Source: Hoeflea sp.
GTDB lineage: Bacteria; Pseudomonadota; Alphaproteobacteria; Rhizobiales; Rhizobiaceae
Direction of reading: 5' to 3'
NCBI RefSeq assembly: GCF_030682515.1
Contig: NZ_JAUXOD010000122.1
Coordinates: 62,001 to 126,000, forward strand
DNA length: 64,000 nt
Both the position numbers and the translations under genes were made by a program. This document shows, piece by piece, positions 32,925 through 50,120 of the stretch (the stretch's first letter is position 1; each line of letters begins with the position of its first letter). The notes beneath the pieces were generated by a model. It was not told the DNA's origin. It made no database searches and saw only the letters and a program-made list of their open reading frames with translations.

Positions 32925-33200
32925 CAAACCGGCTCGACCGGATATTGTTCCGGTCCTGTCGCGAAAGACACGCATGCGGCGCTGCACCGGACACCCGCGC
33001 TGGGCCGGGCGTGCTGCCGGACCGCTTCCCGCGCTGCCTTGCCTGCCCGCCGGAGGGATGAGAGACTTTAAGGACGGATCCTCACACCTGGTTCCGGTCG
33101 GAACCGTCGTAGATTCCTCTCAGCGCCAGCTGGCCCGGGGTCTCGGGGTGAAGCCTGCCATCCGGCCCGCGGCAATCGATTTGTACATTTGCTACCAGCA
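32925..33200. other. Non-coding gap upstream of the transketolase genes
   Basis: I see no gene or RNA here. It carries the divergent upstream regions of the fusion gene and the transketolase operon; the operator-like repeats begin near its right end. Confidence 0.5.
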
Positions 33201-33212
33201 TTGACATTTGTC
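33186..33212. promoter_or_regulatory. Operator-like half-sites before the transketolase/RLP operon
   Basis: ACATTTGC at 33186-33192 region and TTGACATTTGTC at 33201-33212, the latter containing a good -35 hexamer TTGACA. The CATTTG(A/T)C half-site recurs before mtnK (40234-40242) and the aldolase gene (43701-43733), suggesting one regulator. Confidence 0.5.
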
Positions 33213-33252: not shown

Positions 33253-34182
33253 GTGCGCAACAACCGTTCGACCGAAGACATAGCCATGGGAATCCGCAGG
33301 CGGGTGTTCGAGCACTCGATGCGCAACAATGGCGGCTATCTGAGCCAGGCCTGCTCCGCGGCAGAGCAATTGGCGTTCCTCTACAATGAGGCTCTCAATC
33401 TGGGTGAACCAGTGCTTCCCGCAGTGCCCAGGCCGTTTGCCGGCGTGCCCTCTGCCAGCAATCCCGATTATGTGACAGGTGCTGGCTACAACGGCCCGTT
33501 CGAGCCGCAATTTGACCGCCTCTTCATTGCCCCTGCACACTACGCGCTGGTGGCCTATGCGACGCTGATCGAGACCGGGCGCATGGATGCCGAAGGGCTC
33601 GAGATGTTCAACAAGGACGGCTCGTCGGTCGAGATGATCGGCGCCGAGCACTCGCCCGGCATGGAAGTCCACAACGGCACGCTGGGCATCGGCCTGTCCA
33701 CCGGCGCGGGCCTGGCCTGGGGCCGCAAGCGGCGTGGCGACACCGGCCAGGTCTGCGTCTTCATGTCTGATGGCGAGGTCCAGGAAGGCCAGACCTGGGA
33801 AGCGGTCCAGGCAGCCGCCCATCACGGCATCGACAATCTCTGGGCGCTGATGGATGTCAATGACCAGCAGTGCGACGGCGCCATGAGCTCGGTGATGGAA
33901 GTGCGCGACATCGCCGCCAAGTTCCGTGCCTTTGGCGCGGTCTGTGTGGAAATCGACGCTCACGACCTGGGCGCCCTGCGCCAGGCCAAGGCCGAGCCGC
34001 ATGAAGGTCAGCCGCTGATCATCCTCGCCCGCTCCTCGCCCACGCAGGGCATGAGCTTCCTGCAGAAGCGTTTCCCCCGCCTGCACTATGTGCGCTTCAA
34101 ATCCAACGAGGAACGCGCCGAGATGAATGTCTCGATCGCAGCCGAACTCGGCATCGCGCCGATCGAACTGGAGGCCCACTGA
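33253..34182 (+). CDS. Transketolase, N-terminal (ThDP-pyrophosphate) subunit
   Basis: 309 residues from GTG 33253 (VRNNRSTEDIAMGIRRRV), chosen because AGGGAGG ends five bases before it; in-frame upstream starts have no such site. Contains IAPAHYALVAYA and GAEHSPGMEVHNGTLGIGLSTGAG, and the ThDP/Mg motif MSDGEVQEGQTWEA ... DVND. This is one half of a split transketolase; the other half follows with a one-base overlap. Split transketolases are often pathway-specific and act on unusual ketoses, transferring two-carbon units. Co-transcribed with the RuBisCO-like gene. Confidence 0.88.
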   Translation: MRNNRSTEDIAMGIRRRVFEHSMRNNGGYLSQACSAAEQLAFLYNEALNLGEPVLPAVPRPFAGVPSASNPDYVTGAGYNGPFEPQFDRLFIAPAHYALVAYATLIETGRMDAEGLEMFNKDGSSVEMIGAEHSPGMEVHNGTLGIGLSTGAGLAWGRKRRGDTGQVCVFMSDGEVQEGQTWEAVQAAAHHGIDNLWALMDVNDQQCDGAMSSVMEVRDIAAKFRAFGAVCVEIDAHDLGALRQAKAEPHEGQPLIILARSSPTQGMSFLQKRFPRLHYVRFKSNEERAEMNVSIAAELGIAPIELEAH

Positions 34183-35186
34183 TGGTTGAGATGGTCAATC
34201 GCCCCTATGCCTCGGCCTTCGAGGCCTTTGCGGTCAAGAACCCCGACGTGCTGTGCCTGTCGGCCGACCTGACCTCGTCCTGCGAGATCGACGGGTTTAG
34301 GGACCGGCATCCGGACCAGTTCCTGTCGCTCGGCATGGCCGAGCAGAACATGATGAGCTTCGCCGGCGGCCTGGGCCTCGCCGGCTACCGGCCGTTCCTG
34401 CATTCCTTCGGCGTGTTCCTCTACCGCCGTCCCTATGATCAATTGATGGCGTCCGTCGCCTATCCGCGCCGCAAGGTGCGGCTGATGGGTTTCCTGCCCG
34501 GCATCACCACGCCCGGCGGCATGACCCACCAGGCGATCGAGGACATCGCGGTGATGCGCTCGATCCCCAACATGTCGATCCTCGAGACCGGCGACGCCAC
34601 CGAGGTCGAAAGCATCTGCGAGGCGGCCGATTCCATCGACGGTCCGGTCTACTGCCGGGTGCTGCGCGGCTCGGTGCCGCGGCTGTTCGACAGCCCGATC
34701 AAGGTCGGCGAGATGCGCGAACTGGCATTGGGCGAAGACGTCCTTGTCGTGACTTCGGGCATTGCCACGGAAGAAGCCTTGCGGGCGCGCGATGCGCTAT
34801 CAAAGGCCGGCGTCGCCGTGCGGCACCTGCATATCCACACCATCAAGCCGTTCAACGAACAGGCGCTGCTCGACCATATCGGCTCGGTCAGGACAGGCGT
34901 TGTAGTGCTCGAAAACCATCTGATCACCGGCGGCGTCGGCTCTCTGGTGGCCGAGATCATGGCCGACAACGGCGTCGGCAAGCCGCTGGTGCGGCTGGGA
35001 CTGAACGACACCTACGCCCATGGCGGCTCGAAACCCTACCTGATGAAGCATTACGGTCTCGACGCAGGCGCCCTGGTGCGCGGCATCGAGCGGGTGATGG
35101 GCATTTCCACCGGCATTGACGACGAGGCCCTCGCCACTGCCCGCATAGATGCGGTCCATTCGCTGGTCAAGGCCGAGGCCCTGTAG
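34182..35186 (+). CDS. Transketolase, C-terminal (pyrimidine-binding) subunit
   Basis: 334 residues. Catalytic Glu of the pyrimidine domain in LGMAEQNMMSFAGGLGLAGYRPF, then a transketolase C-terminal domain from about 190 (GEDVLVVTSGIATEEALRARDAL). It overlaps the N-terminal subunit gene by one base (TGATG) and the RLP gene start follows at once. Together the two subunits make one active site. Confidence 0.9.
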   Translation: MVEMVNRPYASAFEAFAVKNPDVLCLSADLTSSCEIDGFRDRHPDQFLSLGMAEQNMMSFAGGLGLAGYRPFLHSFGVFLYRRPYDQLMASVAYPRRKVRLMGFLPGITTPGGMTHQAIEDIAVMRSIPNMSILETGDATEVESICEAADSIDGPVYCRVLRGSVPRLFDSPIKVGEMRELALGEDVLVVTSGIATEEALRARDALSKAGVAVRHLHIHTIKPFNEQALLDHIGSVRTGVVVLENHLITGGVGSLVAEIMADNGVGKPLVRLGLNDTYAHGGSKPYLMKHYGLDAGALVRGIERVMGISTGIDDEALATARIDAVHSLVKAEAL

Positions 35187-35188
35187 TG

Positions 35189-36322
35189 ATGAGCGCAGAC
35201 ACACGCTTCCGCGTCTTGTACCGGCTTCTGGCCGACAGTCCCGAGGACGCCCGTCAGCGGGCGCTGGGCATCGCGCTCGAGCAGACGGTCGAGATCCCCG
35301 GCGACATTGTGCCGGCGGGTTATATCAGCGACGAGATCGTGGGGCAGGTCGAAACCATAAGCCATGTCGCGGGCAAGGCCTACGAGACGGTGATCTCCTT
35401 TAGCCCCGACAGCGCCGGCGACGAGGTCATCCAGCTTATCAACGTGATCTTCGGCAATTCCTCGATCCAGCAGAACATCCGCGTGACGGGCTTTGACCCC
35501 GGTCCTGTGATCCGCGATCGCTTCAAGGGACCACGCTTTGGCATAAAGGGCGTTCGCGCCCGCTCGGGCCGCGCGCGCGGCGGCCTGATTTCCCCGGTGA
35601 TCAAGCCCCAAGGGTCGAGCGTCAAGCAACTCGCCGACATTGCCTACCGCTGCACGCTGGGCGGTGCCGACATCATCAAGGATGACCACGGCCTCGCCAA
35701 CCAGAAGATGGCGCCGTTCGCCGAACGGGTGAAGGCGGTGAGCGCCGCGGTGGCCGACGCCAATGCCAAGACCGGCGGCTCGGCGCTCTATTTCGTCAAT
35801 GTCACCGGCCATACGGGCTGGCCTTTGGATGAGGCGTATCAGGCAAAGGAAGCCGGCGCCGGAGGCGTTCTGCTGATGCCCGGCCTGATGGGCTTCGGCG
35901 TGGTCCAGGCGCTGGCGCGCGACCCGTCCTTCGACCTGCCGATCATGACCCATCCGAGCTTCACCGGTCCCTATGTTCTGACGCCTGAGACGGGCGTGTC
36001 GCACGCCCTCATGTATGGCATGTTCCAGCGGCTGGCAGGCTCCGACATCTCGGTCTTCCCCAATGTCGGCGGCCGCTTCGGCTTCAGCGTCGAGGAATGC
36101 CTGTCGATCGCAAGCGCCTGCCGCGACATGGACGGCATCGGCCGGCCGATGATGCCGAGCCCCGGCGGCGGCATGAGTGTCGAGCGTGCTTCGGACATGG
36201 TGTCCATGTATGGCGAGGACGTCGTCTTCCTGCTGGGCGGCAGCCTGTTGCGCGCCGGCGATGCGATCGGCGACGCGGTGCGCGCCATGCGCGATGCGGT
36301 GGACGGGCTCACCGCCGACTGA
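35189..36322 (+). CDS. RuBisCO-like protein (form IV)
   Basis: 377 residues from ATG 35189 (a GTG three bases earlier is also possible). The barrel is recognisable: GPRFGIKGVRA, SPVIKPQG (Lys139, position of RuBisCO Lys175), GGADIIKDDHGLAN (Lys164, position of the carbamylated Lys201), VNVTGHTG, MTHPSFTG and SPGGGMSVE (phosphate-binding). The metal-ligand triad K-D-E of RuBisCO reads K-D-H here: His167 replaces Glu204. Lys177 is also changed (Gln). So it is not a CO2-fixing enzyme. Known RLPs act as enolase or isomerase in methylthioribose metabolism, or in isoapionate breakdown. Neighbouring mtnK and mtnA favour a 5-modified ribulose-1-phosphate substrate. Confidence 0.85.
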   Translation: MSADTRFRVLYRLLADSPEDARQRALGIALEQTVEIPGDIVPAGYISDEIVGQVETISHVAGKAYETVISFSPDSAGDEVIQLINVIFGNSSIQQNIRVTGFDPGPVIRDRFKGPRFGIKGVRARSGRARGGLISPVIKPQGSSVKQLADIAYRCTLGGADIIKDDHGLANQKMAPFAERVKAVSAAVADANAKTGGSALYFVNVTGHTGWPLDEAYQAKEAGAGGVLLMPGLMGFGVVQALARDPSFDLPIMTHPSFTGPYVLTPETGVSHALMYGMFQRLAGSDISVFPNVGGRFGFSVEECLSIASACRDMDGIGRPMMPSPGGGMSVERASDMVSMYGEDVVFLLGGSLLRAGDAIGDAVRAMRDAVDGLTAD

Positions 36323-36350
36323 GTTTCATGAGGTTGTCCTGAAACTGAGG

Positions 36351-36378
36351 GGCCGGTCGAAAGACTGGCCTTTTTTTT
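36351..36378 (+). terminator. Terminator of the transketolase/RLP operon
   Basis: GGCCGGTC - GAAA - GACTGGCC (8 pairs, one G-T) followed by eight T, 29 bp after the RLP stop. Confidence 0.9.
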
Positions 36379-36440
36379 ACTTGTATCATCGCCCGTTGCC
36401 GGCCCGGCGCGCGGCGCTTTCGAGCACGCTCGCTTAAAGC

Positions 36441-36469
36441 AAAAAAAGGCCGCATCCGGAGATGCGGCC
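36441..36469 (-). terminator. Terminator of the ABC transporter operon
   Basis: GGCCGCATC - CGGA - GATGCGGCC, a perfect 9-bp stem; on the minus strand it is followed by seven T. It lies 25 bp beyond the binding-protein stop at 36495, back to back with the RLP terminator. Confidence 0.9.
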
Positions 36470-36494
36470 TTTCCATCCTGGGAGGGATGTTGGA

Positions 36495-37550
36495 TCAGCG
36501 TGCCGGCAGCGGCATCCACTCGGTCATGGCGACATCGGCATGAGCGAACTGTGGCATCTTGGCCGACAGTTCTTCCATGTTCTTGATGTCGTTTTCGAGG
36601 AGGAACTGCTGCGTGATCAGGGTCGGCGGCACCACCACCTGAGCGCCCGGATCGCCACCGGTCAGCATGATGGCAAGCGCACGCACGGAGACTTCGCCGA
36701 CGACGGCCGGGTTGGTCGCGACCGTTGCGGCCCAGGCGCTGTCGGGTTCGCGCATCGCCGAGATGTCGGCGGTCGACACGTCGGCCGAGTAGATCTTGAT
36801 GTCCTGCGACAGGCCGGCTTCGTCGACGGCGATCTTTACGCCCTTGGCGAATTCGTCATAGGGAGCGAAGAACACCGAGATGTCCGGGTTTGCCTGCAGC
36901 ACCGAGCGGGCCTGGTTGGCGTTGGAGTTGGCGATCGGGTTGTCGAGCGTGCCCATCTGGGCGGCCTCGACGATGCCCGGATTGGCGGCCTTGACCTCTT
37001 CCCAGGCGACGTGACGGCGGTCGAGCGGCGCGATGCCCGGCACGTAGACATAGCCGGCCTTCCATTCGGTGCCGTTGTCCTTGATCGCCTGTTCGAGCGC
37101 CAGCTTGCCCAGCAGATAGTCCGACTGCTCGATCTGCGGGATCGCGGCGTTCTCGACATTGACGTCGAAGGCCACGACCTTGATGCCGGCGTCCACCGCG
37201 CGCTGGGCGGCTTCCTTCATCGATTCCGTGAGGCCGTGCTGGATGATGATGCCGTTCACGCCGAGCGCGATCGCCTGGTCGACCATGTCGGCCTGAAGCG
37301 CCGCGTCCTGGCGGCTGTCGAGAACGCGCAAGTCGACGCCAAGCGCTGCCGCCTGCTTTTCCACGCCCGAGAGATAGGCCTGGAAGAAGTCGCCGGTCGA
37401 CAGATAGCGCACCAGCGCGATCTTGACTTCGCCCGGATTGTCGAGCGGTGCCGGCATGTCCGCCGCCTGGACGAATCCGGCGGGAAGGGTGACGGCTGCC
37501 GCCGCGAGGCCTGCAAACAGGGCCAAGGCTTTTCTACGTATGATTTTCAT
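36495..37550 (-). CDS. Periplasmic sugar-binding protein of the mtnK/RLP locus
   Basis: 351 residues from ATG 37550 with GGAGGA upstream. Signal peptide MKIIRRKALALFAGLAAAAVTLP...VQAAD. Ribose-type fold: KIALVRYLSTGDFFQAYLSG, DQAIALGVNGIIIQHG, AGIKVVAFDVN. Third gene of the operon ATPase-permease-binding protein, which is divergent from mtnK. Predicted ligand is a pentose derivative such as 5-methylthioribose or 5-deoxyribose, from the neighbouring kinase and isomerase. Confidence 0.87.
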   Translation of the reverse strand: MKIIRRKALALFAGLAAAAVTLPAGFVQAADMPAPLDNPGEVKIALVRYLSTGDFFQAYLSGVEKQAAALGVDLRVLDSRQDAALQADMVDQAIALGVNGIIIQHGLTESMKEAAQRAVDAGIKVVAFDVNVENAAIPQIEQSDYLLGKLALEQAIKDNGTEWKAGYVYVPGIAPLDRRHVAWEEVKAANPGIVEAAQMGTLDNPIANSNANQARSVLQANPDISVFFAPYDEFAKGVKIAVDEAGLSQDIKIYSADVSTADISAMREPDSAWAATVATNPAVVGEVSVRALAIMLTGGDPGAQVVVPPTLITQQFLLENDIKNMEELSAKMPQFAHADVAMTEWMPLPAR

Positions 37551-37581
37551 GCTGTTTTCCTCCGTTAAACTGATCGTCTTG

Positions 37582-38652
37582 CTAGTGGCCTCCGGCCTTT
37601 CGGGCCGAAAGCGAAAAGGTGAAGACAAGGGCGATGACAAGCACCAGGCCCTTGATGAAATCCTGGGTGTAGTAGGGCGCGTTCATCATCGTCAGGCCCT
37701 GCAGCAGGATGCCCACAAACAGCGCGCCCATCGATGTGCCGAAGGCATTCGGCTTGGCGGCGCCCAGCACCGCATAGCCGATCAATGCCGCAGCCACCGC
37801 ATCGAGCAGCAGGTTGGTTCCGGACGCGATGTCGCCGCGCCCGAGCCGGGCGGCGAGCAGCATGCCGCCGATCGAGGCGAGCACGCCCGAGATCATGTAG
37901 GCCAGGATCTTGTAGCGGTTCACATTGGTACCGGCCAGGCTCGCCGCCCGCTCGTTCGATCCGATCGCGTACATCAGCCGTCCGTGCCGGGTGAGTTCGA
38001 GGAACACCCAGACCAGAATGCCGATGATCACCAGGAACACCACCGGCGCCGGCAGCAGGTTCTCCAGAATGAAATCGAACCGGTGACGGCCAAGCTCGAG
38101 GAACAGCGGCGAGAACGTGCCTTGGGCGGTCGAGCCGTCGGGCAGGGTCATGCCCATGGCGATCGAGCGGCCCTCGGTGGGAATGCGCTGCAGGCCCACC
38201 AGCAGGAACATCATCCCGAGCGTCGCAAGCAGGTCGGGCACCTTGGTCTTGACGATCAGCAGGCCGTTGATCAGCCCGATCAGCGCGCCCATCGCCAGGC
38301 AGGCGACGATGGCGACGAAGGCGGGCTGTTCGAGCACCACCATCATGTAGGCGGCGAGCATCATCGACGAGGTCGCCACCGAGCCGATCGACAGGTCGAA
38401 GCCGCCCACGACCAGCGTGCAGGTGACGCCCAAGGCCAGAATTCCGGTGATCGCCACCGACTGGAAGATGAAGACCGCGCTGCGCGGACCTGCAAAGCCG
38501 TTGGCGAAGACGGAGAAGAAGATCACAAGCCCGACCAGGAGCGCCAGGAAACCGTAGCGGATGGCGATGTCGATCACCCGGTTCGAGTGCGGCTGTGGCT
38601 TGGGCGCGCGTGACTCCGCGCTGTTGGAGGTCTCGGTCTGGTTCATGCTCAT
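37582..38652 (-). CDS. Sugar ABC transporter permease, RbsC-like (mtnK/RLP locus)
   Basis: 356 residues from ATG 38652 (MSMNQTETSN), overlapping the ATPase stop by 4 bp. Hydrophilic N-terminal 27 residues, then about ten hydrophobic segments including the family loop TLVVGGFDLSIGSVATSSMML. The longer open frame to 39345 is antisense noise. Confidence 0.88.
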   Translation of the reverse strand: MSMNQTETSNSAESRAPKPQPHSNRVIDIAIRYGFLALLVGLVIFFSVFANGFAGPRSAVFIFQSVAITGILALGVTCTLVVGGFDLSIGSVATSSMMLAAYMMVVLEQPAFVAIVACLAMGALIGLINGLLIVKTKVPDLLATLGMMFLLVGLQRIPTEGRSIAMGMTLPDGSTAQGTFSPLFLELGRHRFDFILENLLPAPVVFLVIIGILVWVFLELTRHGRLMYAIGSNERAASLAGTNVNRYKILAYMISGVLASIGGMLLAARLGRGDIASGTNLLLDAVAAALIGYAVLGAAKPNAFGTSMGALFVGILLQGLTMMNAPYYTQDFIKGLVLVIALVFTFSLSARKAGGH

Positions 38653-40181
38653 GCGTGTGCTGTCCTTGCGGCGCTGCCGGCATCTGCCGGCAGGGCCCCG
38701 GTTACTGCGGTGAGGATCTCGTTGAGATCCACATTCTCGTTGCGGAATTCCGCCGCGACCGAGTGCTCGGTCATGACGATGATGCGGTCGGCCACTTCCA
38801 GCGCCTCGTCGAGTTCGGAGACGAACACCAGCGTCGCGCGGCTGTTGGCGGTCTGGCGGATCTTGCGGCCGATGTCCCGGCGGGCGCGGATATCGACGCC
38901 CTGGAACGGTTCGTCGAGCAGCAGCAGCCGGCATTCCTCGGCGAGCCATCTTGCCAGCATCACCTTCTGCTGGTTGCCGCCCGAGAGGGTGCCGATCGAA
39001 TCGGTCTCGCCCTGGCAGACGATCGACAGCGCCTCGATCATGGCGTTGGCGGTCTTGCGCTCGTCGGAGCGCTTGATGAAGGACAGGTTCGAGTAGCGCC
39101 CGAGGAAGGGCAGGGTGATGTTGCGGGTGATGTCGAAATCGGCAACCACGGCATTGTTGGCACGGTCCTTGGCCGACATGAACACGCCGCGCGCAATGGC
39201 GGCCTGCGGGGTGGCCGGCTGGTAGTCCTTGCCGTCGATCCGGATCTGTCCGCCTGCTGGCCGGCCGAGGCCGAACAGGCTTTGCGCAAACGCGCTCTTG
39301 CCGCTGCCGAGCAGGCCGGTAACGGCCACGACCTCGTTCTCGCACAGGGTGAAATCGAATGGTGCGCTGCCGGGCAGGAGCTTGAGGGCGTTGATCTCGA
39401 GCACGGGCTTGCCGGGCGCGCCGATGGTGATGTCGGCTTCGGTCATCCGGTGGCCGAGCATGGCCTGGACCGCGCCTTCGTAATCGAGCGCCGCGCCTTC
39501 GAAGATCCCGGAGATCTCGCCGTCGCGCATCGACACGATGCGCGATGCGATGCGGCGGATGTCGGACATGCGGTGGGAGATGTAGAGAACGGCGACGCCC
39601 TTGGCCGACAGGCGTTCGATGAGCAGGAACAGCCGCTCCGCTTCGGTGGCCGAGAGCGACGACGTCGGCTCGTCGAGGATGAGCAGTTGCGGGTCATGCG
39701 CCATGGCCCGCGCAATGGCGATCAGCTGCCGGTCGGCGACGCCAAGCTCGGCCACCGACTGGCGCACATTGAGCGAGAGCCCCATCTGGCTGGCGATCCG
39801 CTCGGCGTCGGCATAGTTCTGCCTGCGCTTGAGGAAGAAGCCGTAGGACGGTTCGGCAAGCCGGTCGATCAGCAGGTTGGAGGCGACATCGAGATCGGGG
39901 ATCACCCCGTCATTGATGTTCTGGTGCACGGTGACGACGCCCGCGCGGATGGCTTCGGAAGGGGTGGACGGGCGGAAATCCTTGCCCAGCAGGCTGATCG
40001 AGCCCGAGTCGAGCGCATGCACGCCGCTCAGGATCTTGACGAGCGTGGATTTGCCCGCGCCATTGGCGCCCATCAGCACAGTGACGGAACCGGCAGGCAG
40101 CGACAGGTTGAGCCGCTTGAGGACACGATTGTCCCCGAACGACTTGTCCACGCCCCGCAATTCGCAAAGAGTTCCGTTCAT
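38649..40181 (-). CDS. Sugar ABC transporter ATP-binding protein (two NBDs), mtnK/RLP locus
   Basis: 510 residues. NBD1: GANGAGKST, LILDEPTSSLSATEA, signature-like VAELGVADRQL. NBD2: GLLGSGKSAFA, which keeps an intact Walker A lysine, unlike most RbsA-type second domains; LSGGNQQKVMLARWL; LLLLDEPFQGVDIRA. First gene of the importer operon, starting 123 bp from mtnK on the other strand and sharing the palindromic operator. Confidence 0.92.
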   Translation of the reverse strand: MNGTLCELRGVDKSFGDNRVLKRLNLSLPAGSVTVLMGANGAGKSTLVKILSGVHALDSGSISLLGKDFRPSTPSEAIRAGVVTVHQNINDGVIPDLDVASNLLIDRLAEPSYGFFLKRRQNYADAERIASQMGLSLNVRQSVAELGVADRQLIAIARAMAHDPQLLILDEPTSSLSATEAERLFLLIERLSAKGVAVLYISHRMSDIRRIASRIVSMRDGEISGIFEGAALDYEGAVQAMLGHRMTEADITIGAPGKPVLEINALKLLPGSAPFDFTLCENEVVAVTGLLGSGKSAFAQSLFGLGRPAGGQIRIDGKDYQPATPQAAIARGVFMSAKDRANNAVVADFDITRNITLPFLGRYSNLSFIKRSDERKTANAMIEALSIVCQGETDSIGTLSGGNQQKVMLARWLAEECRLLLLDEPFQGVDIRARRDIGRKIRQTANSRATLVFVSELDEALEVADRIIVMTEHSVAAEFRNENVDLNEILTAVTGALPADAGSAARTAHA

Positions 40182-40222
40182 CCTGTCCTCCCGCTATGAT
40201 GAAAACAGCAGCGGTGACAAAA

Positions 40223-40242
40223 GTCAATACGTATTGACAAAT
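40223..40242. promoter_or_regulatory. Palindromic operator between the ABC operon and mtnK
   Basis: Perfect 16-bp palindrome GTCAATACGTATTGAC (40223-40238), running into TTGACAAATG, which repeats the half-site seen at 43701-43733 and 33201-33212. TTGACA at 40234-40239 is a good -35 for mtnK, with TAGGCT 18 bp on as -10. Likely SorC-family regulator site controlling both directions. Confidence 0.65.
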
Positions 40243-40304
40243 GATTGAATTGGACACTAGGCTTGGTCAACACATAGCCTGGACTGTCATGTGGGAGGAT
40301 GGTT

Positions 40305-41567
40305 TTGAGCAGCAACTACATACCTTTATCGCCGGAAACCCTGGGGGATCGCCTGGGCGGTCTGGACGTTATGGCACAGGCCGTGGGCGGCGCCCCGTCT
40401 GCCTGGAATGTGCGTGAAGTCGGCGACGGCAACCTCAATCTCGTCTTTATCGTGGAAGGCGAGGCCGGAAGCGTCATCGTCAAGCAGGCGCTTCCTTATG
40501 TCCGCCTGGTGGGCGACAGCTGGCCGCTGCCGCTCAAGCGGGCGTTTTTCGAGTATCATGCCCTGATCCGCCAGGAAGCGCGGGATCCGGGCAGCGTGCC
40601 CGAGGTCCTGCATTTTGACGAAAGCCAGGCGCTCATCATCATGGAGCGGCTGCAGCCGCATATTATTCTGCGCCAGCAGACCATGGAAGGCCGCAAGGTT
40701 GCGGGTCTTGGCCGCACCTTGGGATTGTTTGCTGCGCGCACGGCGTTTCGTGGTTCGGATTTGTCGATGACGGCGGCGGACAAGAAAGCCGACGCGGCCC
40801 TCTTCGCCGGCAATGTCGAGCTGTGCGACATCACCGAGTCGCTGGTCTTCACCGATCCCTATTATGACGCGAAGCTCAACCGGCACACCACGCCGCAGCT
40901 CGACGGCATTGTCGCCGACCTGCGCCGGGATGAGGCGCTGAAGGTCGAGGTCCAGCACATGAAGCGGGCCTTCACCTCGCGCGGCGAAACCATGTGCCAT
41001 GGCGATCTCCATGCTGGCTCGATCATGGTCACCGGCGAGCAATCCCGGATCATCGATCCGGAATTCGCCTTCTACGGCCCGTTCGGCTTCGACATCGGCA
41101 TGCTGATCGGCAATTACCTGATGGCCTATCACGCGATGCCGGCCCATATCTCCGATGCGGATGCCTGCCGCGACTTCCAGGACTGGATCCTCTCCGTCAT
41201 CGACGAGACCTGGACGGTGTTCCGCGAGGAGTTCCTGCGCCTGTGGCGCACCGAGCGGACCGGCATCCTCTACCCGAAGGCGCTCTACGAGGATCAGGGA
41301 CACCATTTCGCCTCCGAGAGTGCGGCCGAGCAGCTGCTCGCGGAGATCTTCCGCGATCTCGTCGGCTTTGCCGGCATCGAGATGCACCGGCGAATCCTGG
41401 GCCTTGCCCATGTCGCCGAACTCGACACCATCAAGGACGAGGACCTCAAGGCCCGCTGCGAGGCGCGATGCCTCAAGCTGGGGCAGTTCCTGGTCATGAA
41501 CAGAAATCGCCTGACGGGCATGGACGCCGTACTGGCTGCGGCGCAGCGCGCCGAAACGGGAGCATGA
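40305..41567 (+). CDS. mtnK: S-methyl-5-thioribose kinase (MtnK-like)
   Basis: 420 residues from TTG 40305, six bases after GGGAGG; an ATG at 40299 touches that site and would leave no spacer, so TTG is preferred (two residues shorter). Choline-kinase-like fold with MtnK hallmarks: EVGDGNLNLVFIVEG, SVIVKQALPYVRLVGDSWPLP, catalytic loop CHGDLHAGSI and metal-binding IIDPEFAFYG. MtnK phosphorylates 5-methylthioribose at C1; close relatives phosphorylate 5-deoxyribose. Followed after 3 bp by mtnA. Confidence 0.92.
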   Translation: MSSNYIPLSPETLGDRLGGLDVMAQAVGGAPSAWNVREVGDGNLNLVFIVEGEAGSVIVKQALPYVRLVGDSWPLPLKRAFFEYHALIRQEARDPGSVPEVLHFDESQALIIMERLQPHIILRQQTMEGRKVAGLGRTLGLFAARTAFRGSDLSMTAADKKADAALFAGNVELCDITESLVFTDPYYDAKLNRHTTPQLDGIVADLRRDEALKVEVQHMKRAFTSRGETMCHGDLHAGSIMVTGEQSRIIDPEFAFYGPFGFDIGMLIGNYLMAYHAMPAHISDADACRDFQDWILSVIDETWTVFREEFLRLWRTERTGILYPKALYEDQGHHFASESAAEQLLAEIFRDLVGFAGIEMHRRILGLAHVAELDTIKDEDLKARCEARCLKLGQFLVMNRNRLTGMDAVLAAAQRAETGA

Positions 41568-41570
41568 GGC

Positions 41571-42674
41571 ATGAAGGTTGGTGACACGCACTACCGGTCG
41601 ATCTGGTTTGATGGCGAGAAGTCCAGGGTCATGATCATCGATCAGCGCTGGCTGCCGCACGAATTCCGGGTGGTCGAGCTCGACACGCTGGACGAGTTCG
41701 CCACGGCGATCCGGGACATGTGGGTTCGCGGCGCGCCGCTGATCGGCGCCACTGCCGCCTATGGCGTCGCCATCGAGATGCAGCGCGATGCCTCCGATGC
41801 TTCGCTCGACAGTGCCTGGGAGCTCTTGCACGAGACCCGGCCGACGGCGATCAACCTGCGCTGGGCGCTCGATGAAATGCGCCAGACGCTGGCCGGACTT
41901 CCCCTGGACGAGCGCGCCGCGGCCGCGTTCCGCAAGGCCGAAGAAATCTGCGACGCCGATGTCGAGACCAACCGCATGATCGGCGTGCATGGCCTGGAGA
42001 TCATCCGGAAGATAGCCGCCACCAAGAAACCCGGCGAGGCGGTCAACATTCTCACCCACTGCAATGCCGGCTGGCTGGCGACGGTGGACTGGGGCACGGC
42101 CACGTCGCCGATGTACCAGGCGGCGACCGCCGGCATTCCCATCCATGTCTGGGTCGACGAGACCCGCCCGCGCAACCAGGGCGCCCAGCTCACCAGCTGG
42201 GAAATGAACAGCCACGGCATCCCGCACCATCTCATCGTCGACAATGCCGGCGGGCACCTGATGCAGCACGGTCAGGTCGACATGGTCATTGTCGGCACCG
42301 ACCGGACCACCGCCTCGGGCGATGTCTGCAACAAGATCGGCACCTATCTGAAGGCGCTCGCGGCCCATGACAATGATGTGCCGTTCTACGTGGCGCTGCC
42401 CTCGAGCACGATCGACTGGACGGTGAACGACGGCGTGCGCGAGATTCCGATCGAGGAGCGCAACGACCGCGAGGTCACCCATGTCTTCGGACGGCTGGAG
42501 GATGGCAGCGTTGCCCAGGTGCAGATTTCGCCGGATGGCACGCCCGGCGGCAACCCCGCCTTCGACGTCACGCCGGCGCGCCTTGTCACCGGCCTGATCA
42601 CCGAGCGCGGCATCGCCGAAGCTTCGCCCGAAGGCCTGCTGGGCCTGTTCCCCGAGCGCCGCAGCGCCGCCTGA
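41571..42674 (+). CDS. mtnA: S-methyl-5-thioribose-1-phosphate isomerase (MtnA-like)
   Basis: 367 residues. MtnA/eIF2B-like fold with all hallmarks: [25 protein letters not shown], catalytic Cys in [22 protein letters not shown], catalytic Asp in [19 protein letters not shown]. It converts 5-methylthioribose-1-phosphate to the ribulose-1-phosphate. The usual partners of the full methionine salvage pathway (mtnB, C, D, W, X) are not in this window; instead an aldolase fusion and an RLP are present. Confidence 0.93.
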
Positions 42675-42706
42675 TCGCCCGCGTGGCTCCACGCACCGCG
42701 GTCGGT

Positions 42707-43678
42707 TCAGGCGAAGTCCATCATCGCGGCGGCGCAGCTCTGGTTGGTGACCAGATGGGTCGCGTACCCGCCCCTGATGGCGGCAATGGCCGCGGGCACG
42801 CGTTCCTCGCCCACCGAGACCAGGATCCCCATCTCGCGGTGGCGCAATTCCTCGAGCTCGATCCCCATCATCCGGTCATCCAGCGGACCGCTGACCGGAT
42901 CGCCCTTGGCGTCGATGAAGCGGCCGCACAACACGCCGACGGCGCCGTTGGCGATGTAGTCCTCGAGTTCCTTCTGGGTCGCCACGCCGCTGGAGGCGAC
43001 ATGGCTGTCGGGCTTGCACGAGCCCACGGCGAACAGGATCTTGTTGCAGTGGCGGATCGCGTCGAGCTGCCGGGCGATGAGCTGCTCCGCGCGCAGGGTG
43101 GCAGCGATCTCGGCCGTGCTCAGGATCGCCGGCACATGCAGGTTGATGCACTTGGCGGAGAACTTCCGCGCCACGTTGGACGAGCAGACATCGGCGGAAA
43201 AGCCGTAGGGCGTGGCCATGGAGCCTACCAGCTGCATCACGGTGAGATCGGGAATGACCGTCTGCTCGAGGCGTTCGGCCACATCGTAGATGGTCTTGCC
43301 CCAGGCGACGCCGAGCCGGTCGCCGGGCTCGAGAAGGCTCGGCAGCCAGTCCGCCGCCCCGCGGATGATGCGGCTGGCATGATCGTCCTCGCCGTCGGTG
43401 CCGTCGGGAAGGATATAGGCGGCCTTCAGGCCGAAGCGGTCGCGCAGCGCCAGCGCGGTCCGGTGCGTGTTGAAGGCCTCGGGCGACAGTTTGGTGTGGA
43501 TGTAGCCACGTTCCCGGGCTTCCTGCAGATAGTTCACCACCGTGGCCCGCGACACCAGCAGCCGGTTGGCGATCTCGCTCTGGTTGAGCCCGTCGTGGTA
43601 ATAAAGCCATGCGGTCTCGACGACGATATCCTCGCCGCTGACTTGCTTGGTAGAGCGTCTGGTCGGGTTCTGGGGCAT
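42707..43678 (-). CDS. SorC/DeoR-family sugar-binding transcriptional regulator
   Basis: 323 residues. N-terminal helix-turn-helix AWLYYHDGLNQSEIANRLLVSRATVVNYLQEARERGYI, then a sugar-phosphate-binding domain (LGVAWGKTIYDVAERL, VQLVGS-like MQLVGSMATP, GVLCGRFIDAKG). SorC proteins bind phosphorylated sugars as effectors. It lies between mtnA (convergent) and the aldolase fusion gene (divergent), so it most likely governs the whole locus through the CATTTG(A/T)C sites. Confidence 0.9.
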   Translation of the reverse strand: MPQNPTRRSTKQVSGEDIVVETAWLYYHDGLNQSEIANRLLVSRATVVNYLQEARERGYIHTKLSPEAFNTHRTALALRDRFGLKAAYILPDGTDGEDDHASRIIRGAADWLPSLLEPGDRLGVAWGKTIYDVAERLEQTVIPDLTVMQLVGSMATPYGFSADVCSSNVARKFSAKCINLHVPAILSTAEIAATLRAEQLIARQLDAIRHCNKILFAVGSCKPDSHVASSGVATQKELEDYIANGAVGVLCGRFIDAKGDPVSGPLDDRMMGIELEELRHREMGILVSVGEERVPAAIAAIRGGYATHLVTNQSCAAAMMDFA

Positions 43679-43700
43679 ATCAATCCATCACCAATATATA

Positions 43701-43733
43701 CATTTGACAATAGAGAATGACTTTTGTCAAATG
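43701..43733. promoter_or_regulatory. Inverted-repeat operator/promoter between the SorC gene and the aldolase fusion
   Basis: CATTTGACA (43701-43709) and TGTCAAATG (43725-43733), 9-bp arms 15 bp apart. Because of the symmetry TTGACA-N17-TCAAAT can be read as a -35/-10 pair on both strands, giving overlapping divergent promoters under one operator. Confidence 0.65.
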
Positions 43734-43757
43734 ATGCAAACACACATGGAGATCGTA

Positions 43758-45827
43758 ATGCGGCAAAACAGGTGGAATGACAAGGAAGCCCAGGCCCGGG
43801 TCGAGGCGGCCGGCACCAATCCCGCCGACCGGACCCTGGCGCTCAGGGTCTATTCGTCCCGCATCATCGGCGCCGATCCCGATCTCGTCATGCATGGCGG
43901 CGGCAACACTTCGGTCAAGACCGAGAGGGAAGATCTTTTCGGCGTCCTGCAGCCGGTGCTGCATGTCAAGGGAAGCGGCTGGGATCTCGATACGCTCGAA
44001 GCCGCGGGCTTGCCCGGCGTGCGGCTCGATGCGCTTTTGGAGATGCGCCAGCTCGACGCCCTGTCCGACGAGGACATGGTCAACATGCAGCGCTCCAACC
44101 TGCTCGATTCCAGCGCCCCGAACCCGTCGGTCGAAACCCTGCTGCACGCCTTCCTGCCGCACACCTTTGTCGATCACACCCATGCCACCGCCTTCCTGGC
44201 GCTCGCCAACCTGCCCGAACCGGAAGCCGCGATCCGCGAGATCTTCGGGGATCGGCTGGCGGTGGTGCCATACATCATGCCCGGCTTTGCGCTGGCCAAG
44301 AAGGCGGCCGAAGTGTTTGACGCCCATCCCGACTGCGAGGGGATCATCCTTCTCAAGCACGGCCATTTCACCTTCGGCGCGACGGCGAAGGAAAGCTACG
44401 ACAAGGTGATCGCGCACACCAATCTGGTCGAGGACTGGCTTGCCGCGAAGAACGCCGGCCGCCGCTTTGCCGGCACCGTCAAGAGGAACCGCACGGCGTC
44501 AGCGCCGGAAGCTGCAGCCATCCTGCCGGTCCTGCGCGGCGCGATCGGCCGGCTGCGCGGCGACCATCATCGGGCCGCGCCCCTGCCGGTTGTGATGGAT
44601 ATGCGCGGCGGCGAGGTGATCGACGCCTTCCTCGGCCGTCCCGATCTCCAGGATCTCGCCCGGCGCGGCGTCGCCTCGCCCGACCACGTGATCCGCACCA
44701 AAGGCCGCATGCTGGTTCTGGGCAAGGATGACCTGGCCCAGGGTCGCGCCGGCATCGAAGCCAGGGTGGAGGAGTATGCCGAAGCCTATCGCGCGATGTT
44801 CAAGGCGCAGTTTGATCGGGTCGGCGGCGGCAAGGTGATGCTGGAACCGCACCCCTGCGTCGCCTGGATCGAGGGTCTGGGCATCGTCGGAATCGGCAAG
44901 GATGCCTCGGCCGCGTCCGCCGCCGCCGACATCGCCGAGCAGACGGTCGAGGTGATGACCTTGGGGGAAGCCGCGGGCGGCTTCCGTCCGATCGGCCCGG
45001 ACGACCTGTTCGACATGGAATACTGGTCGCTCGAACAGGCGAAGCTCTCCAAGGCCGCGGCCAAGCCCTTTGCCGGGCAGGTGGTCGCCGTCACCGGCGG
45101 CGCCGGCGCCATAGGCCTTGCCACCGCAAAAGCCTTCGCGCGGGAGGGCGCCGCGGTGGCGCTGATCGATTTCAACCCCGAGGCCTGCAAGGCCGCTGCG
45201 GCCTCGATCGGCCCCAACTGCCTCGCGGTCGTGGCTGACCTGACCGCATCCGGCGCCGCCGACAAGGCCGTGGGAGAGATTGTCGCGCGTTTCGGCGGCC
45301 TCGACGTGCTCGTCTCCAACGCCGGCGCCGCCGTTCAGGGCATGCTTCTCGATCTCGACGAGGCGACGCTGCGCGCAAGTTTCGAACTCAACTTCTTCTC
45401 CCACCTCGCCATGGCCAAGGCCGCGGCCAAGGTATTCTCCGCCCAGGACCATGGCGGGCAGATGCTGTTCAACGTCTCCAAGCAGGCGGTCAACCCTGGC
45501 AAGGGTTTTGGCGCCTACGGGCTGCCCAAGGCGGCCACCTTCTTCCTGGTCCGGCAACTGGCGCTCGAGCTCGGCGGGTCGGGCATCAGGGTCAACGGCG
45601 TCAATGCCGACCGCATCCGCTCCGGCCTGCTGACGGATGATTTCATCCAATCCCGCGCCGAGGCGAGGGGGGTATCCGCCTCCGACTACATGGCCGGCAA
45701 CCTGCTCAAACGCGAGGTCGAGGCCACCCATGTCGCCGACGCCTTCCTGGCGCTGGCGCGATCCGAGCGGACCACCGCCCACGTCATCACCGTCGACGGC
45801 GGCAACATAGAGGCGGCCTTGCGCTAG
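43758..45827 (+). CDS. Bifunctional class II aldolase / short-chain dehydrogenase (RhaD-like fusion)
   Basis: 689 residues from ATG 43758 (MRQNRWNDKEAQARVE), with GGAG seven bases upstream. N-terminal class II aldolase domain (about 1-270): GGGNTSVK, VDHTHATAF with metal His-x-His and ILLKHGHFTFG with the third His. C-terminal SDR (about 432-689): TGGAGAIG, SNAGAA, NVSKQAV and YGLPK for the Ser-Tyr-Lys set. The family cleaves rhamnulose-1-phosphate to DHAP and lactaldehyde and oxidises the aldehyde. Here the partner isomerase makes a 5-modified ribulose-1-phosphate, so cleavage to DHAP plus methylthioacetaldehyde or acetaldehyde is a reasonable prediction. Confidence 0.88.
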   Translation: MRQNRWNDKEAQARVEAAGTNPADRTLALRVYSSRIIGADPDLVMHGGGNTSVKTEREDLFGVLQPVLHVKGSGWDLDTLEAAGLPGVRLDALLEMRQLDALSDEDMVNMQRSNLLDSSAPNPSVETLLHAFLPHTFVDHTHATAFLALANLPEPEAAIREIFGDRLAVVPYIMPGFALAKKAAEVFDAHPDCEGIILLKHGHFTFGATAKESYDKVIAHTNLVEDWLAAKNAGRRFAGTVKRNRTASAPEAAAILPVLRGAIGRLRGDHHRAAPLPVVMDMRGGEVIDAFLGRPDLQDLARRGVASPDHVIRTKGRMLVLGKDDLAQGRAGIEARVEEYAEAYRAMFKAQFDRVGGGKVMLEPHPCVAWIEGLGIVGIGKDASAASAAADIAEQTVEVMTLGEAAGGFRPIGPDDLFDMEYWSLEQAKLSKAAAKPFAGQVVAVTGGAGAIGLATAKAFAREGAAVALIDFNPEACKAAAASIGPNCLAVVADLTASGAADKAVGEIVARFGGLDVLVSNAGAAVQGMLLDLDEATLRASFELNFFSHLAMAKAAAKVFSAQDHGGQMLFNVSKQAVNPGKGFGAYGLPKAATFFLVRQLALELGGSGIRVNGVNADRIRSGLLTDDFIQSRAEARGVSASDYMAGNLLKREVEATHVADAFLALARSERTTAHVITVDGGNIEAALR

Positions 45828-46151: not shown

Positions 46152-47174
46152 CTAGACGGATTGCCGTTCAACGATCGGGCACTCGACCTTCAACTGGTCG
46201 TGGCTGCTCTTCAATCCGCCTGCAATATCGTGGATCATTTCCACGGCCATCGCACCCATCTGGAACAAGGGAAGATGCAGGGTTGTCAGCGGAGGCCGGA
46301 GGAACTGGGCGATGTCGCGATTGTCAAAGCCGATCACCGATACATCTCCGGGAATGGATTTTCCGCGTTCCTTCAAAGCCTCGATACATCCCAGCGCCAT
46401 AAGGTCGTTGGCGCAGAAAATGGCGTCCGGCGGATTGGCGAGATCCATCAGCGCATGGGTTTCCGTGTAGCCCGAAGACGGTTCCCAGTTTCCGTATCGC
46501 ACCAGGTCCGCATCGAAGGTGAAGTCATTGCTCGCCAACGCCTGCTTGTAGCCGCGCAACCGGTCGCGCGGGTTATCGAGGCCGTCCTGGCCATTGATCA
46601 GCCCGATCCTGCGGCGGCCGGCCTGGATCAGCCGTTCCGTCGCCGCGCGGCCGCCGGCAACATCCCCTGGAAGAATTGACGGCAGGCGCCGGCTCTGGTC
46701 GTAGCAATTCACCAGCACTGACGGCATCTTGAAAAGAGCGGCGGGTGGATCGATCTTGCGGGTCAGGATGGTGCCAAAGATATATCCGAGCAGGGGTTGC
46801 CGCTGGCACAGGGAAAACACGTCCTCGTTCGGATCCTCGCCGGCCCGAAAAATGCCGAGAGTGACGATCACGCCCAGTTCCAGCGCTTTCTCACGCGCGC
46901 CTTCGAACGCCAGCGCCATCCAGGGGTCGGTCGTCAGTTCGTCTGTGAGGAAGGCAATCACGCTGCTTTCAGACGGATCGGTGGCTATCGACCGGTTGGG
47001 GAGCCGATAGCCAAGCTCATTGACCGCATCCATCACTTTCTTGCGTGTTGCCTCGCTGAACCGCGCTCCCGAACTTCCGTTGAGGATCAGGGATACCGTT
47101 GCCTGTGACACGCCCGCCCGCGCGGCAACATCCATCATTGTAGGTTTCAAGGCATTCTCCGTGATGCGTGCCAT
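46152..47174 (-). CDS. LacI-family transcriptional regulator
   Basis: 340 residues. N-terminal LacI helix-turn-helix TMMDVAARAGVSQATVSLILNGSSGARFSEATRKKV, hinge, then a periplasmic-binding-protein-like core (VIAFLTDELTTDPWMALAFEGARE, RLIQAGRRRIGLINGQDG, DAIFCANDLMALGCIEAL). Same strand as, and just downstream of, the permease at 47198; probably represses both flanking transporter operons in the absence of their sugar. Confidence 0.9.
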   Translation of the reverse strand: MARITENALKPTMMDVAARAGVSQATVSLILNGSSGARFSEATRKKVMDAVNELGYRLPNRSIATDPSESSVIAFLTDELTTDPWMALAFEGAREKALELGVIVTLGIFRAGEDPNEDVFSLCQRQPLLGYIFGTILTRKIDPPAALFKMPSVLVNCYDQSRRLPSILPGDVAGGRAATERLIQAGRRRIGLINGQDGLDNPRDRLRGYKQALASNDFTFDADLVRYGNWEPSSGYTETHALMDLANPPDAIFCANDLMALGCIEALKERGKSIPGDVSVIGFDNRDIAQFLRPPLTTLHLPLFQMGAMAVEMIHDIAGGLKSSHDQLKVECPIVERQSV

Positions 47175-47197
47175 GGCGACCGCAGATTCGCTTCAAC

Positions 47198-48193
47198 CTA
47201 TGTTCGGAAGTTCCGGAATCGGTCGAATGCCACGGCAACGATGATGAAGGTACCTATGAACATTCCCTGCCAGAAAGTCGAGATGCCGAGCAGGATGAGG
47301 GAGTTGCGAATGACCTCTATCAACAGGGCGCCGACAACGGCTCCAAGCGCCGTCCCCTCGCCGCCGGCCAGATTGGCGCCGCCGATGACGGCTGCGGCGA
47401 TGACGGTGAGTTCCATCGCCTGGCCGAGATTGGTGGTGACGCTGCCGAGCCAGCCTGCCATCAGAATGCCCGCCAGGCCTGCCGTGAAGGCCGAAAACAT
47501 GTAGATGCTGACCTTGAGCCGCTTGACCGGAATGCCGGTCAGCACCGCCGCGGTCTCGTTGCTGCCGATGGCGAACAGATGCTGCCCCCAGCGGCTCCAT
47601 TTGAACGCCAGCGACATGACGATGGTGAGCGCCGTGAGAACAAAAAGCGGATGAGGCAGGCCGAAGGTGGAGCCGCCGCCGACCCAGAGCAGGATGTCGT
47701 GGTCGGGGCCGAACTGCCAGATCATCTTGTTGTCCGACAGCACCATGGCGAGCGAGCGCGCCGCCGAGAGGGTCCCCAGCGTCACCACGAAGGCCGGCAT
47801 CCCCGCATAGGCGATGAGAACGCCGTTGAGAAGTCCGACCAGGAGTGCCGCGCCCAGCGCGAGGACGGCGGCGAACCAGAACGGCAGCCCGCTGGCCATG
47901 GCGACGGAAATCACCATGGCGCTGAGCACGACGGAGGAACCGACGGAAAGATCGATGCCGCCCGAGGCGATCACCGCCGTCATGCCGATGGCGATGATGG
48001 CGACGAAGGCGAAATTGCGGGCGACGTTGAACAGGTTGCGTTCGCTGGCGAAGGCATCGGTCATGAAGGTGAGCGCGAGGCAGGCCAGCACGGCTGCGGT
48101 GAAGACCCAGAAGACCTGAAGCCCCATGATGCGCGAAAGCAGGCTCTTGTGCTGGCTCTTGCCGATGATGTCATCGAGTGTCGTCATTGTCAT
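47198..48193 (-). CDS. Sugar ABC transporter permease, Frc/RbsC-like
   Basis: 331 residues, about ten hydrophobic segments with AVIASGGIDLSVGSSVVLSAMV as family loop and GSNETAAVLTGIPVKRLKV. Six bp after a single-domain ATPase gene; together they resemble the FrcC-FrcA arrangement. The cognate binding protein is likely the one at 50121. Confidence 0.87.
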   Translation of the reverse strand: MTMTTLDDIIGKSQHKSLLSRIMGLQVFWVFTAAVLACLALTFMTDAFASERNLFNVARNFAFVAIIAIGMTAVIASGGIDLSVGSSVVLSAMVISVAMASGLPFWFAAVLALGAALLVGLLNGVLIAYAGMPAFVVTLGTLSAARSLAMVLSDNKMIWQFGPDHDILLWVGGGSTFGLPHPLFVLTALTIVMSLAFKWSRWGQHLFAIGSNETAAVLTGIPVKRLKVSIYMFSAFTAGLAGILMAGWLGSVTTNLGQAMELTVIAAAVIGGANLAGGEGTALGAVVGALLIEVIRNSLILLGISTFWQGMFIGTFIIVAVAFDRFRNFRT

Positions 48194-48199
48194 ATCCTT

Positions 48200-48940: not shown

Positions 48941-49044
48941 CGTTCCTCCTCGTCGGGTTCGCCCTATGGGTGTGCCGCCCGCGAGCCGCTTCCCACACTC
49001 CTCCTCAGCGCAATCTAGCACATATTATGACTAATAGCTTGACT

Positions 49045-49055
49045 TAATATTATTA
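49045..49055. promoter_or_regulatory. Operator-like word TAATATTATTA in the divergent promoter
   Basis: The 158-bp gap between ATPase (48940) and epimerase (49099) is very AT-rich around this word. The same 11-mer, inverted, occurs at 51183-51193 before the second binding-protein gene. It may be the site of the LacI regulator at 46152. Confidence 0.45.
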
Positions 49056-49098
49056 GTAAACAATGCTTATGCAAGTTTCGCTGGATAGGGAGGAATGG

Positions 49099-50079: not shown

Positions 50080-50120
50080 GGCAGGAGGCCTCGCCGGTTT
50101 TAAGTGGAGGAGAGAGCATT

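Follow-up and report, generated by a model that had tools for sequence, protein, structure and literature searches.

RuBisCO-like proteins (RLPs) acting after the isomerase MtnA have been described in the 5'-methylthioadenosine (MTA)-isoprenoid shunt of Rhodospirillum rubrum and Rhodopseudomonas palustris, where MtnA is followed by an RLP that acts on 5-methylthioribulose-1-phosphate and a partner gene adjoins the RLP gene (excerpted text of PMC5893883 and PMC4958253). The dihydroxyacetone phosphate (DHAP) shunt, encoded by mtnK-mtnA-ald2 in E. coli and R. palustris, combines MtnK and MtnA with a class II aldolase (excerpted text of PMC10986504); the universal methionine salvage pathway includes MtnK, MtnA and an RLP; and the sulfo-transketolase pathway of sulfoquinovose (SqwGH) uses a dedicated split transketolase in the catabolism of a sulfur-bearing sugar (excerpted text of PMC11659671). 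Features of all these systems come together in a single locus (positions 33253-45827) of a 64,000-nucleotide stretch of DNA from Hoeflea sp., here called the window, which lies on contig C68 of a 4.67 Mb assembly in 144 contigs (genome G000). The sequence-only reading of this DNA had listed seven functions for the locus, namely a split transketolase, an RLP, a three-part ribose-type importer, MtnK, MtnA, a SorC-type regulator and a fusion of a class II aldolase with a short-chain dehydrogenase (SDR), and profile searches of the open reading frames of the window recovered every named gene in the same place and order. The locus forms a self-contained gene set, which probably serves to take up a modified ribose, for example 5-methylthioribose (MTR). 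On balance we favor the interpretation that it combines the DHAP shunt with a second branch, in which a transketolase would replace the cupin encoded beside other RLPs, and that import of the 5-modified ribose would be under SorC control.

The pairing of the RLP with a split transketolase, put forward in the sequence-only reading from this one locus, recurs widely. In an order-level sample of 397 genomes, 57 matched the RLP (E 1e-20), including 23 with at least 47% identity (one partial match, in G282), and 30 matched the C-terminal transketolase subunit TktC (E 1e-70), including 26 with at least 65% identity; these two identity thresholds define the RLP clade and the transketolase subfamily (Tkt) of the window. 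All 23 genomes with the RLP clade hold Tkt, and 23 of the 26 Tkt genomes hold the RLP (Fisher p ~2e-34, uncorrected for kinship). In a class-level sample of 385 genomes (RLP at E 1e-50, TktC at E 1e-90), the RLP was found in 17 genomes and TktC in three (G000, G612 and G753), and the RLP adjoins TktC in all three; G612 and G753 are distant from the window, with 43-44% identity for the RLP and 56-58% for TktC. No description of an RLP-transketolase pairing was found in the titles and abstract starts of the open-licence PMC literature, the author of the sequence-only reading likewise knew of no described pathway of this kind, and the excerpted texts of PMC10663253 and PMC7895386 do not mention it.

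Gene content was further compared across 80 named loci, the best 80 of 555 confirmed relatives when ranked by their likeness to the query alignment, a set that is biased to its clade and includes 25 loci shorter than 20 kb. Among them, tktC is present in 76, tktN in 73, mtnA in 68, mtnK and each importer gene in 61, sorC in 51 and the aldolase fusion in 50; a FucU/RbsD-type mutarotase (11), a purine nucleoside phosphorylase (PNP; 10), a deaminase (8) and bisC (5) also occur, and a cupin in none. When only those 55 loci that reach 20 kb are counted, tktC is present in 52, mtnA in 50 and mtnK in 44. The tktC and RLP genes are adjacent on the same strand in all 76 loci that have both, with a median gap between aligned ends of 9 bases and a maximum of 33. 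Loci L091, L092, L093 and L140 are the four without tktC; L091-L093 were rejected as cases of an RLP without Tkt, which is encoded elsewhere in those genomes (82-83% identity), and so was L047 of the order-level sample, where Tkt lies ~20 kb off on the same contig. The closest named relatives of the RLP come from Hoeflea (86-89% identity) and most of the 80 loci are titled Alphaproteobacteria; one, L142, is titled Enemella (Actinomycetota) and another, L154, a Myxococcales metagenome-assembled genome (MAG), which may reflect transfer or mislabelled sequence.

In loci with RLPs of lower identity, a cupin gene holds the position beside the RLP gene. Among the 14 order-sample loci whose RLP has less than 45% identity (L053-L065 and L067), a Cupin_2 protein adjoins in 11 (not in L062, L063 and L067), the weaker matches of that sample (~26-32% identity) lying mostly outside the examined loci. 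The other 14 RLPs of the class-level sample (36-41% identity) have an adjacent cupin in 13 cases, and the fourteenth stops at a contig end. A cupin-linked RLP matches 3qfw, the R. palustris enzyme, at E 1e-132, and the same structure is the best PDB match of the window's RLP. The best solved match of the cupin is 3jzv, Rru_A2000, reported as the 1-methylthioxylulose-5-phosphate (MTXu-5P) sulfurylase of R. rubrum (excerpted text of PMC4958253), and RLP1 of R. palustris with its adjoining cupin has been studied as a methylthioribulose-1-phosphate isomerase and a methylsulfurylase (excerpted text of PMC5893883). A quick tree of 107 RLPs, built with one simple model and with long branches flagged for L067, L063 and L148, places ten cupin-linked RLPs on one side of a branch with an SH-aLRT value of 97. 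The partner label, cupin or Tkt, changes once on this tree when the seven rows with neither partner are left out of the count. In G000, nothing matches the cupin at E 1e-6, and it is absent from 14 of the 15 Tkt-type genomes searched. Given this single label change and this absence, the transketolase occupies the position that the cupin has in other RLP loci.

The window's RLP lies across one branch from the cupin-linked RLPs and has 57 near-invariant residues in common with them, including K139, K164, D166 and H167. Model scores, the best PDB match, the residues in common and its placement in a tree, a check proposed along with the sequence-only reading, put it nearer to the cupin-linked methylthioribulose-1-phosphate isomerase (DeepYkr) group than to the isoapionate or MtnW enzymes, with 148 bits against the MtnW model (TIGR03332, cut-off 513.6). 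We know of no assay for a member of this RLP clade. Perhaps a third RLP context is represented by L063 (6753-11655), where a distant RLP (36%) is preceded by MtnK-like and glycerol-1-phosphate-dehydrogenase-like genes and followed by a PfkB kinase gene, with neither cupin nor Tkt in this stretch.

A gene fusion connects the transketolase with MtnA. In G612 and G793, which belong to one genus (five genomes of that order were searched), MtnA and TktN form one protein (84% alike), of 656 aa in G612 and with a 649-aa open frame in G793; the MtnA part scores 425 bits (cut-off 279), the Transketolase_N part 58 bits (cut-off 22), and the gene order is SorC, MtnA::TktN, TktC, RLP. In G612, genes for a nucleoside transporter (CNT) and for a PNP of the inosine type run divergently from this cluster, and no aldolase was seen in the 16 kb read. 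MtnA is also found without MtnK in six named loci of at least 20 kb (L097, L125, L137, L142, L143 and L152). A PNP is encoded in all six; four have a deaminase of the 5'-deoxyadenosine/MTA type, and a BMP-type binding protein is likewise present in four. Since nucleoside variants have MtnA without MtnK and MtnA is fused to TktN, the upstream steps vary between loci and MtnA, RLP and Tkt are retained. The same two lines of evidence support the view that the RLP and the transketolase belong with MtnA, and the pairing of the two with each other is likewise supported by their co-occurrence, the partner swap and the gene fusion. Next to mtnA in L097 and L142 are genes for S/N-oxide reductases of the BisC family, whose scores of 909 and 910 bits stay below the family cut-off of 1017.55; they hint at a sulfur substrate.

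In the split transketolase, the Pfam ThDP (thiamine diphosphate)-binding and pyrimidine domains score above cut-off and the catalytic residues are kept: H66, D155, E160, N185, E411, H473 and R520 of TktA, along with S385, F434, F437 and Y440, are conserved in all 14 rows of the alignment. The best solved matches are 6yak and 6yaj, and TktC resembles DXS profiles too, at scores below their cut-off. Of the RSFHR phosphate-site motif (excerpted text of PMC11659671), the S, the F and the final R are present, and in one of two alignments the first R lies one position off; a phosphorylated ketose is the likely donor.

From these observations, we infer the substrate, the targets of the regulator, each reaction and what becomes of the two-carbon unit as follows. 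A SorC-controlled regulon would import a 5-modified ribose, most likely MTR excreted by other cells; an external supply is plausible, because E. coli exports MTR as waste (excerpted text of PMC6302742). MtnK would phosphorylate the sugar at C1 and MtnA would isomerize the product to a 5-modified ribulose-1-phosphate, from which two branches would leave. In the first branch, the DHAP shunt, the aldolase domain of the fusion protein would yield DHAP and a two-carbon aldehyde, to be oxidized or reduced by the fused dehydrogenase. In the second branch, the RLP would shift the carbonyl (1,3-isomerization) to form a 1-substituted xylulose-5-phosphate, and the split transketolase, at the place of the cupin methylsulfurylase of Rhodospirillum and Rhodopseudomonas, would cut between C2 and C3 to release glyceraldehyde-3-phosphate (G3P), the two-carbon unit being passed to an acceptor or set free. 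Both MtnK and MtnA exceed their curated NCBIfam cut-offs, as the DHAP shunt demands, and candidate genes for both branches anticipated by the sequence-only reading are present, the aldolase branch proving optional among the relatives. A sulfur-bearing substrate would be favored by the MTR-kinase score, the kinship of the RLP and the BisC-family reductases. As a bolder option, which we regard as rather unlikely, the split transketolase may be a thiol-eliminating ketolase, in which, once MTXu-5P is cleaved, the thiamine-bound methylthio-enamine would expel methanethiol, so that one enzyme would give G3P, methanethiol and acetyl phosphate or acetate, a new C-S cleavage in place of that of the cupin. 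Analogues of such an expulsion are the departure of sulfite in sulfoacetaldehyde acetyltransferase and of water in phosphoketolase.

Searches of G000 bear on the classical alternatives. The mtnB and mtnD families have no match anywhere in the genome in family searches (mtnC and mtnX were not searched), so that of the earlier claim that mtnB, mtnC, mtnD, mtnW and mtnX are missing from the window, the parts on mtnB and mtnD stand, as does that on mtnW in the sense that the RLP scores well below the MtnW cut-off. The best match to MTA phosphorylase (MtnP) reaches 98 bits, below the cut-off of 274.85, which is passed in four of eight Tkt-type genomes searched, and the RLP gene is the single RuBisCO-family gene. 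The TktC query has four further matching places in G000: two split transketolases adjoining FGGY kinases, on C12 (L186:3352-9859) and C30 (L187:8033-11283), and two DXS genes, on C121 (L215:572-2560, 748 bits) and C17 (L216:804-2753, 806 bits; cut-off 466). The gene on C121 was rejected as a full-length housekeeping transketolase because it is DXS, as was that on C17, and no other candidate was identified, although no search was aimed at one.

Several observations weigh against the favored interpretation. Three genomes with Tkt (G273, G330 and G367) have no RLP match genome-wide at E 1e-20, and their Tkt genes adjoin permease genes of another ribose-type importer; in G367, genes for a zinc dehydrogenase and an FGGY kinase are present as well. 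In a further order-level sample around G753 (179 genomes, TktC at E 1e-80), three genomes have Tkt and the RLP adjoins it in G753 only; G856 and G871 have Tkt with no RLP within ~10 kb, the stretch searched, and an AraD-like gene instead, which in G856 reaches 251.3 bits against NF005123 (L-ribulose-5-phosphate 4-epimerase, cut-off 251). The RLP and Tkt lie apart in L091-L093 and G071; in the L091 genome, Tkt is accompanied by bisC, an FGGY kinase, a zinc dehydrogenase, an AraD-like gene and sorC, and the RLP stands in the mtn cluster. Since Tkt occurs without an RLP beside FGGY kinase, AraD-like and importer genes, it may also serve another sugar route, perhaps drawing on the same xylulose-5-phosphate-like donor made by a 5-kinase and a 4-epimerase. 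The case that the sequence-only reading had named as its refutation, RLP and transketolase genes without mtnK/mtnA, does occur: mtnA is missing from 11 of the 76 Tkt-bearing named loci. Six of these span less than 20 kb and could be truncated, L127 and L131 (with the short L117) have a different sugar-type cluster, and L108, L114 and L154, all above 20 kb, hold the RLP and Tkt without mtnA, mtnK or nucleoside genes. The partner swap has exceptions as well: Roseiarcus (G406) holds both Tkt and the cupin, and L140, a MAG, holds an RLP of the window's clade with a cupin and without Tkt. The RLP differs from the cupin-linked group at nine fixed positions, two of them gaps. In the transketolase, the phosphate-site H461 aligns with Leu and the donor-site H100 of TktA is lost, the latter also in four of five other split transketolases compared, so that this loss was dropped as a mark of a donor without a C1 hydroxyl. 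Finally, the PNPs are of the inosine type and not of the MTA type, and no methanethiol-handling gene was recognized among the annotated conserved clusters, with no search made for such families.

Part of this evidence suits a route for an unmodified sugar, in which nucleosides or ribose would pass through ribose-1-phosphate, ribulose-1-phosphate (by the MtnA-like enzyme) and xylulose-5-phosphate (by the RLP) to a plain transketolase and the pentose phosphate pathway. A nucleoside transporter and an inosine-type PNP stand beside MtnA::TktN in L191, Tkt accompanies an AraD-type gene without an RLP, as expected for a xylulose-5-phosphate donor, and the same 1,3-shift would turn ribulose-1-phosphate into xylulose-5-phosphate. 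This route stays under consideration because Tkt also occurs in RLP-free sugar clusters and L108, L114 and L154 have no recognized feeder genes; it was given more weight because the two full-length transketolase-like matches in G000 are DXS, which leaves the argument that a further transketolase would be superfluous not established. We nevertheless consider it improbable, as MtnK lies far above the MTR-kinase cut-off, the RLP is kin to enzymes assayed on the methylthio compound, and a detour through the RLP would be long for plain ribose. The favored pathway might also run on 5-deoxyribose from 5'-deoxyadenosine, the RLP forming 1-deoxyxylulose-5-phosphate (DXP) and the transketolase cleaving it to G3P and either acetaldehyde or an acetyl unit that is transferred. 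In E. coli, MtnK and MtnA handle 5-deoxyribose as well as MTR (excerpted text of PMC10986504), a 5'-deoxyadenosine/MTA-deaminase-type amidohydrolase is found in 8 of the 80 loci, and the sub-threshold resemblance of TktC to DXS would fit. However, DXP feeds isoprenoid synthesis directly, so a dedicated transketolase would be needed for carbon use alone, G000 has two DXS genes, and the BisC-family reductases of some loci point to sulfur, so that we take this variant to be unlikely. It is highly unlikely that the RLP and transketolase come from a pathway for apiose, isoapionate or another branched sugar and are only co-regulated with the mtn genes: the split transketolase AptAB and the RLP OiaX do occur in apiose catabolism, but the window's RLP scores 63 bits against the OiaX model (NF042437, cut-off 700) and groups with the cupin-linked RLPs, and the MtnA::TktN fusion argues in the same direction.

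As a separate observation, a second type of cluster contains Tkt with or without the RLP (L039, L041, L043, L045, L046, L066, L068, L070, L073, L117, L127, L131 and L184). Its genes encode another ribose-type importer, an FGGY kinase, a zinc dehydrogenase, an AraD-like class II aldolase/epimerase, a PfkB kinase, SorC and a BisC/TorA-family Mo reductase, no locus by itself showing all of them in each case. Genes for a homocysteine S-methyltransferase and a cystine-type ABC importer lie near those for RLP, Tkt and BisC in L039 (14160-16756), as well as in L043, L045 and L131.

The sequence-only reading had also pointed to related operator elements in the window, and a shared palindrome, CATTTGWCAATANNNNWTGACTTTTGTCA, was indeed located at two sites, along with a weak half-site before tktN (Table 1). 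Shuffled sequences yield 0 expected matches to CATTTGWCAATANNNNWTGACTTTTGTCA, a pattern that was derived from its own two sites, so this is not an independent test; the half-site pattern has 3 matches against 1.39 expected, and 18 of 100 shuffles reach 3. The operator regions are kept in two Hoeflea loci, L088 and L089. Given the two copies of the palindrome, the half-site before tktN and the conservation of these regions in Hoeflea, the three transcription units appear to be under one regulator. The start of tktN is a GTG codon chosen by comparison with homologues.

Table 1. Genes and putative regulatory elements of the locus (window coordinates), and the MtnA::TktN fusion in two genomes of one genus.
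Feature	Position	Strand	Basis or remark
Putative operator half-site 5' of tktN	33200-33212	+	weak alone
tktN, ThDP-binding N-terminal subunit of split transketolase	33253-34182	+	Transketolase_N 61 bits (cut-off 22)
tktC, C-terminal subunit of split transketolase	34182-35186	+	Transket_pyr 86 bits, Transketolase_C 64 bits
RLP (RuBisCO-like protein)	35189-36322	+	RuBisCO_large 65 bits (cut-off 30); kin to cupin-linked methylthioribulose-1-phosphate isomerases
Convergent intergenic stretch with terminator-like hairpins	36323-36494	.	kept in Hoeflea loci
Periplasmic sugar-binding protein of ribose-type ABC importer	36495-37550	-	Peripla_BP_4 114 bits (cut-off 35)
Importer permease	37582-38652	-	BPD_transp_2 147 bits (cut-off 27)
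Importer ATPase, AraG/RbsA type, two ABC domains	38649-40181	-	profile match
Putative palindromic operator, importer operon/mtnK gap	40215-40243	-	exact match to CATTTGWCAATANNNNWTGACTTTTGTCA
mtnK, 5-methylthioribose kinase family	40299-41567	+	TIGR01767 480 bits (cut-off 275)
mtnA, 5-methylthioribose-1-phosphate isomerase family	41571-42674	+	TIGR00512 432 bits (cut-off 279)
SorC/DeoR-type sugar-sensing regulator	42707-43678	-	Sugar-bind 201 bits (cut-off 27)
Putative palindromic operator, sorC/aldolase gene gap	43701-43729	+	exact match to CATTTGWCAATANNNNWTGACTTTTGTCA
Class II aldolase/SDR fusion	43758-45827	+	NF006192 886 bits (cut-off 639); Aldolase_II domain present
MtnA::TktN fusion	L191:7149-9119	-	
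MtnA::TktN fusion	L212:314-2257	+	

Directly after the regulon, the window encodes a LacI-type regulator (RbsR/CytR-like) followed by genes resembling another sugar ABC importer (46152-51113). On the other side, an 860-aa protein (30342-32924, minus strand) combines an NAD-dependent epimerase domain with SPW repeats and a vitamin K epoxide reductase domain. A CobW-type GTPase (25483-26691) scores 593 against the cut-off of 600 for the zinc metallochaperone ZigA, and the neighbors at 18936-21100 resemble it, judged by their N-termini.

The proposed pathway offers a testable role for an uncharacterized RLP clade and for a transketolase subfamily. If it is true, MTR excreted by other microbes would be a carbon source, and perhaps a source of sulfur and methanethiol, by a route undescribed in the literature searched, and the RLP superfamily would gain a second downstream partner chemistry. 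Compared with universal methionine salvage, the window's RLP falls far below the MtnW cut-off, and mtnB and mtnD are absent from the genome. The SqwGH enzyme moves an unmodified ketol unit to G3P and leaves the sulfonate on the other product, whereas in the pathway proposed here the two-carbon fragment would carry the modification; in the excerpted text of PMC11659671 no RLP is described for that pathway, and its phosphate-site motif is RAFDR, compared with S, F and the last R kept and H replaced by L in the window. Unlike that of the DHAP shunt, the aldolase of the window has a dehydrogenase fused to it and is not present in all relatives, and an RLP, a transketolase and an importer are added. 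Relative to the MTA-isoprenoid shunt, the locus has its own importer, MtnK and a SorC-type regulator in place of MTA phosphorylase, and a split transketolase instead of the cupin methylsulfurylase. As branching between an RLP and an aldolase is already known in R. palustris (excerpted text of PMC5893883), the new element is the transketolase in the place of the cupin.

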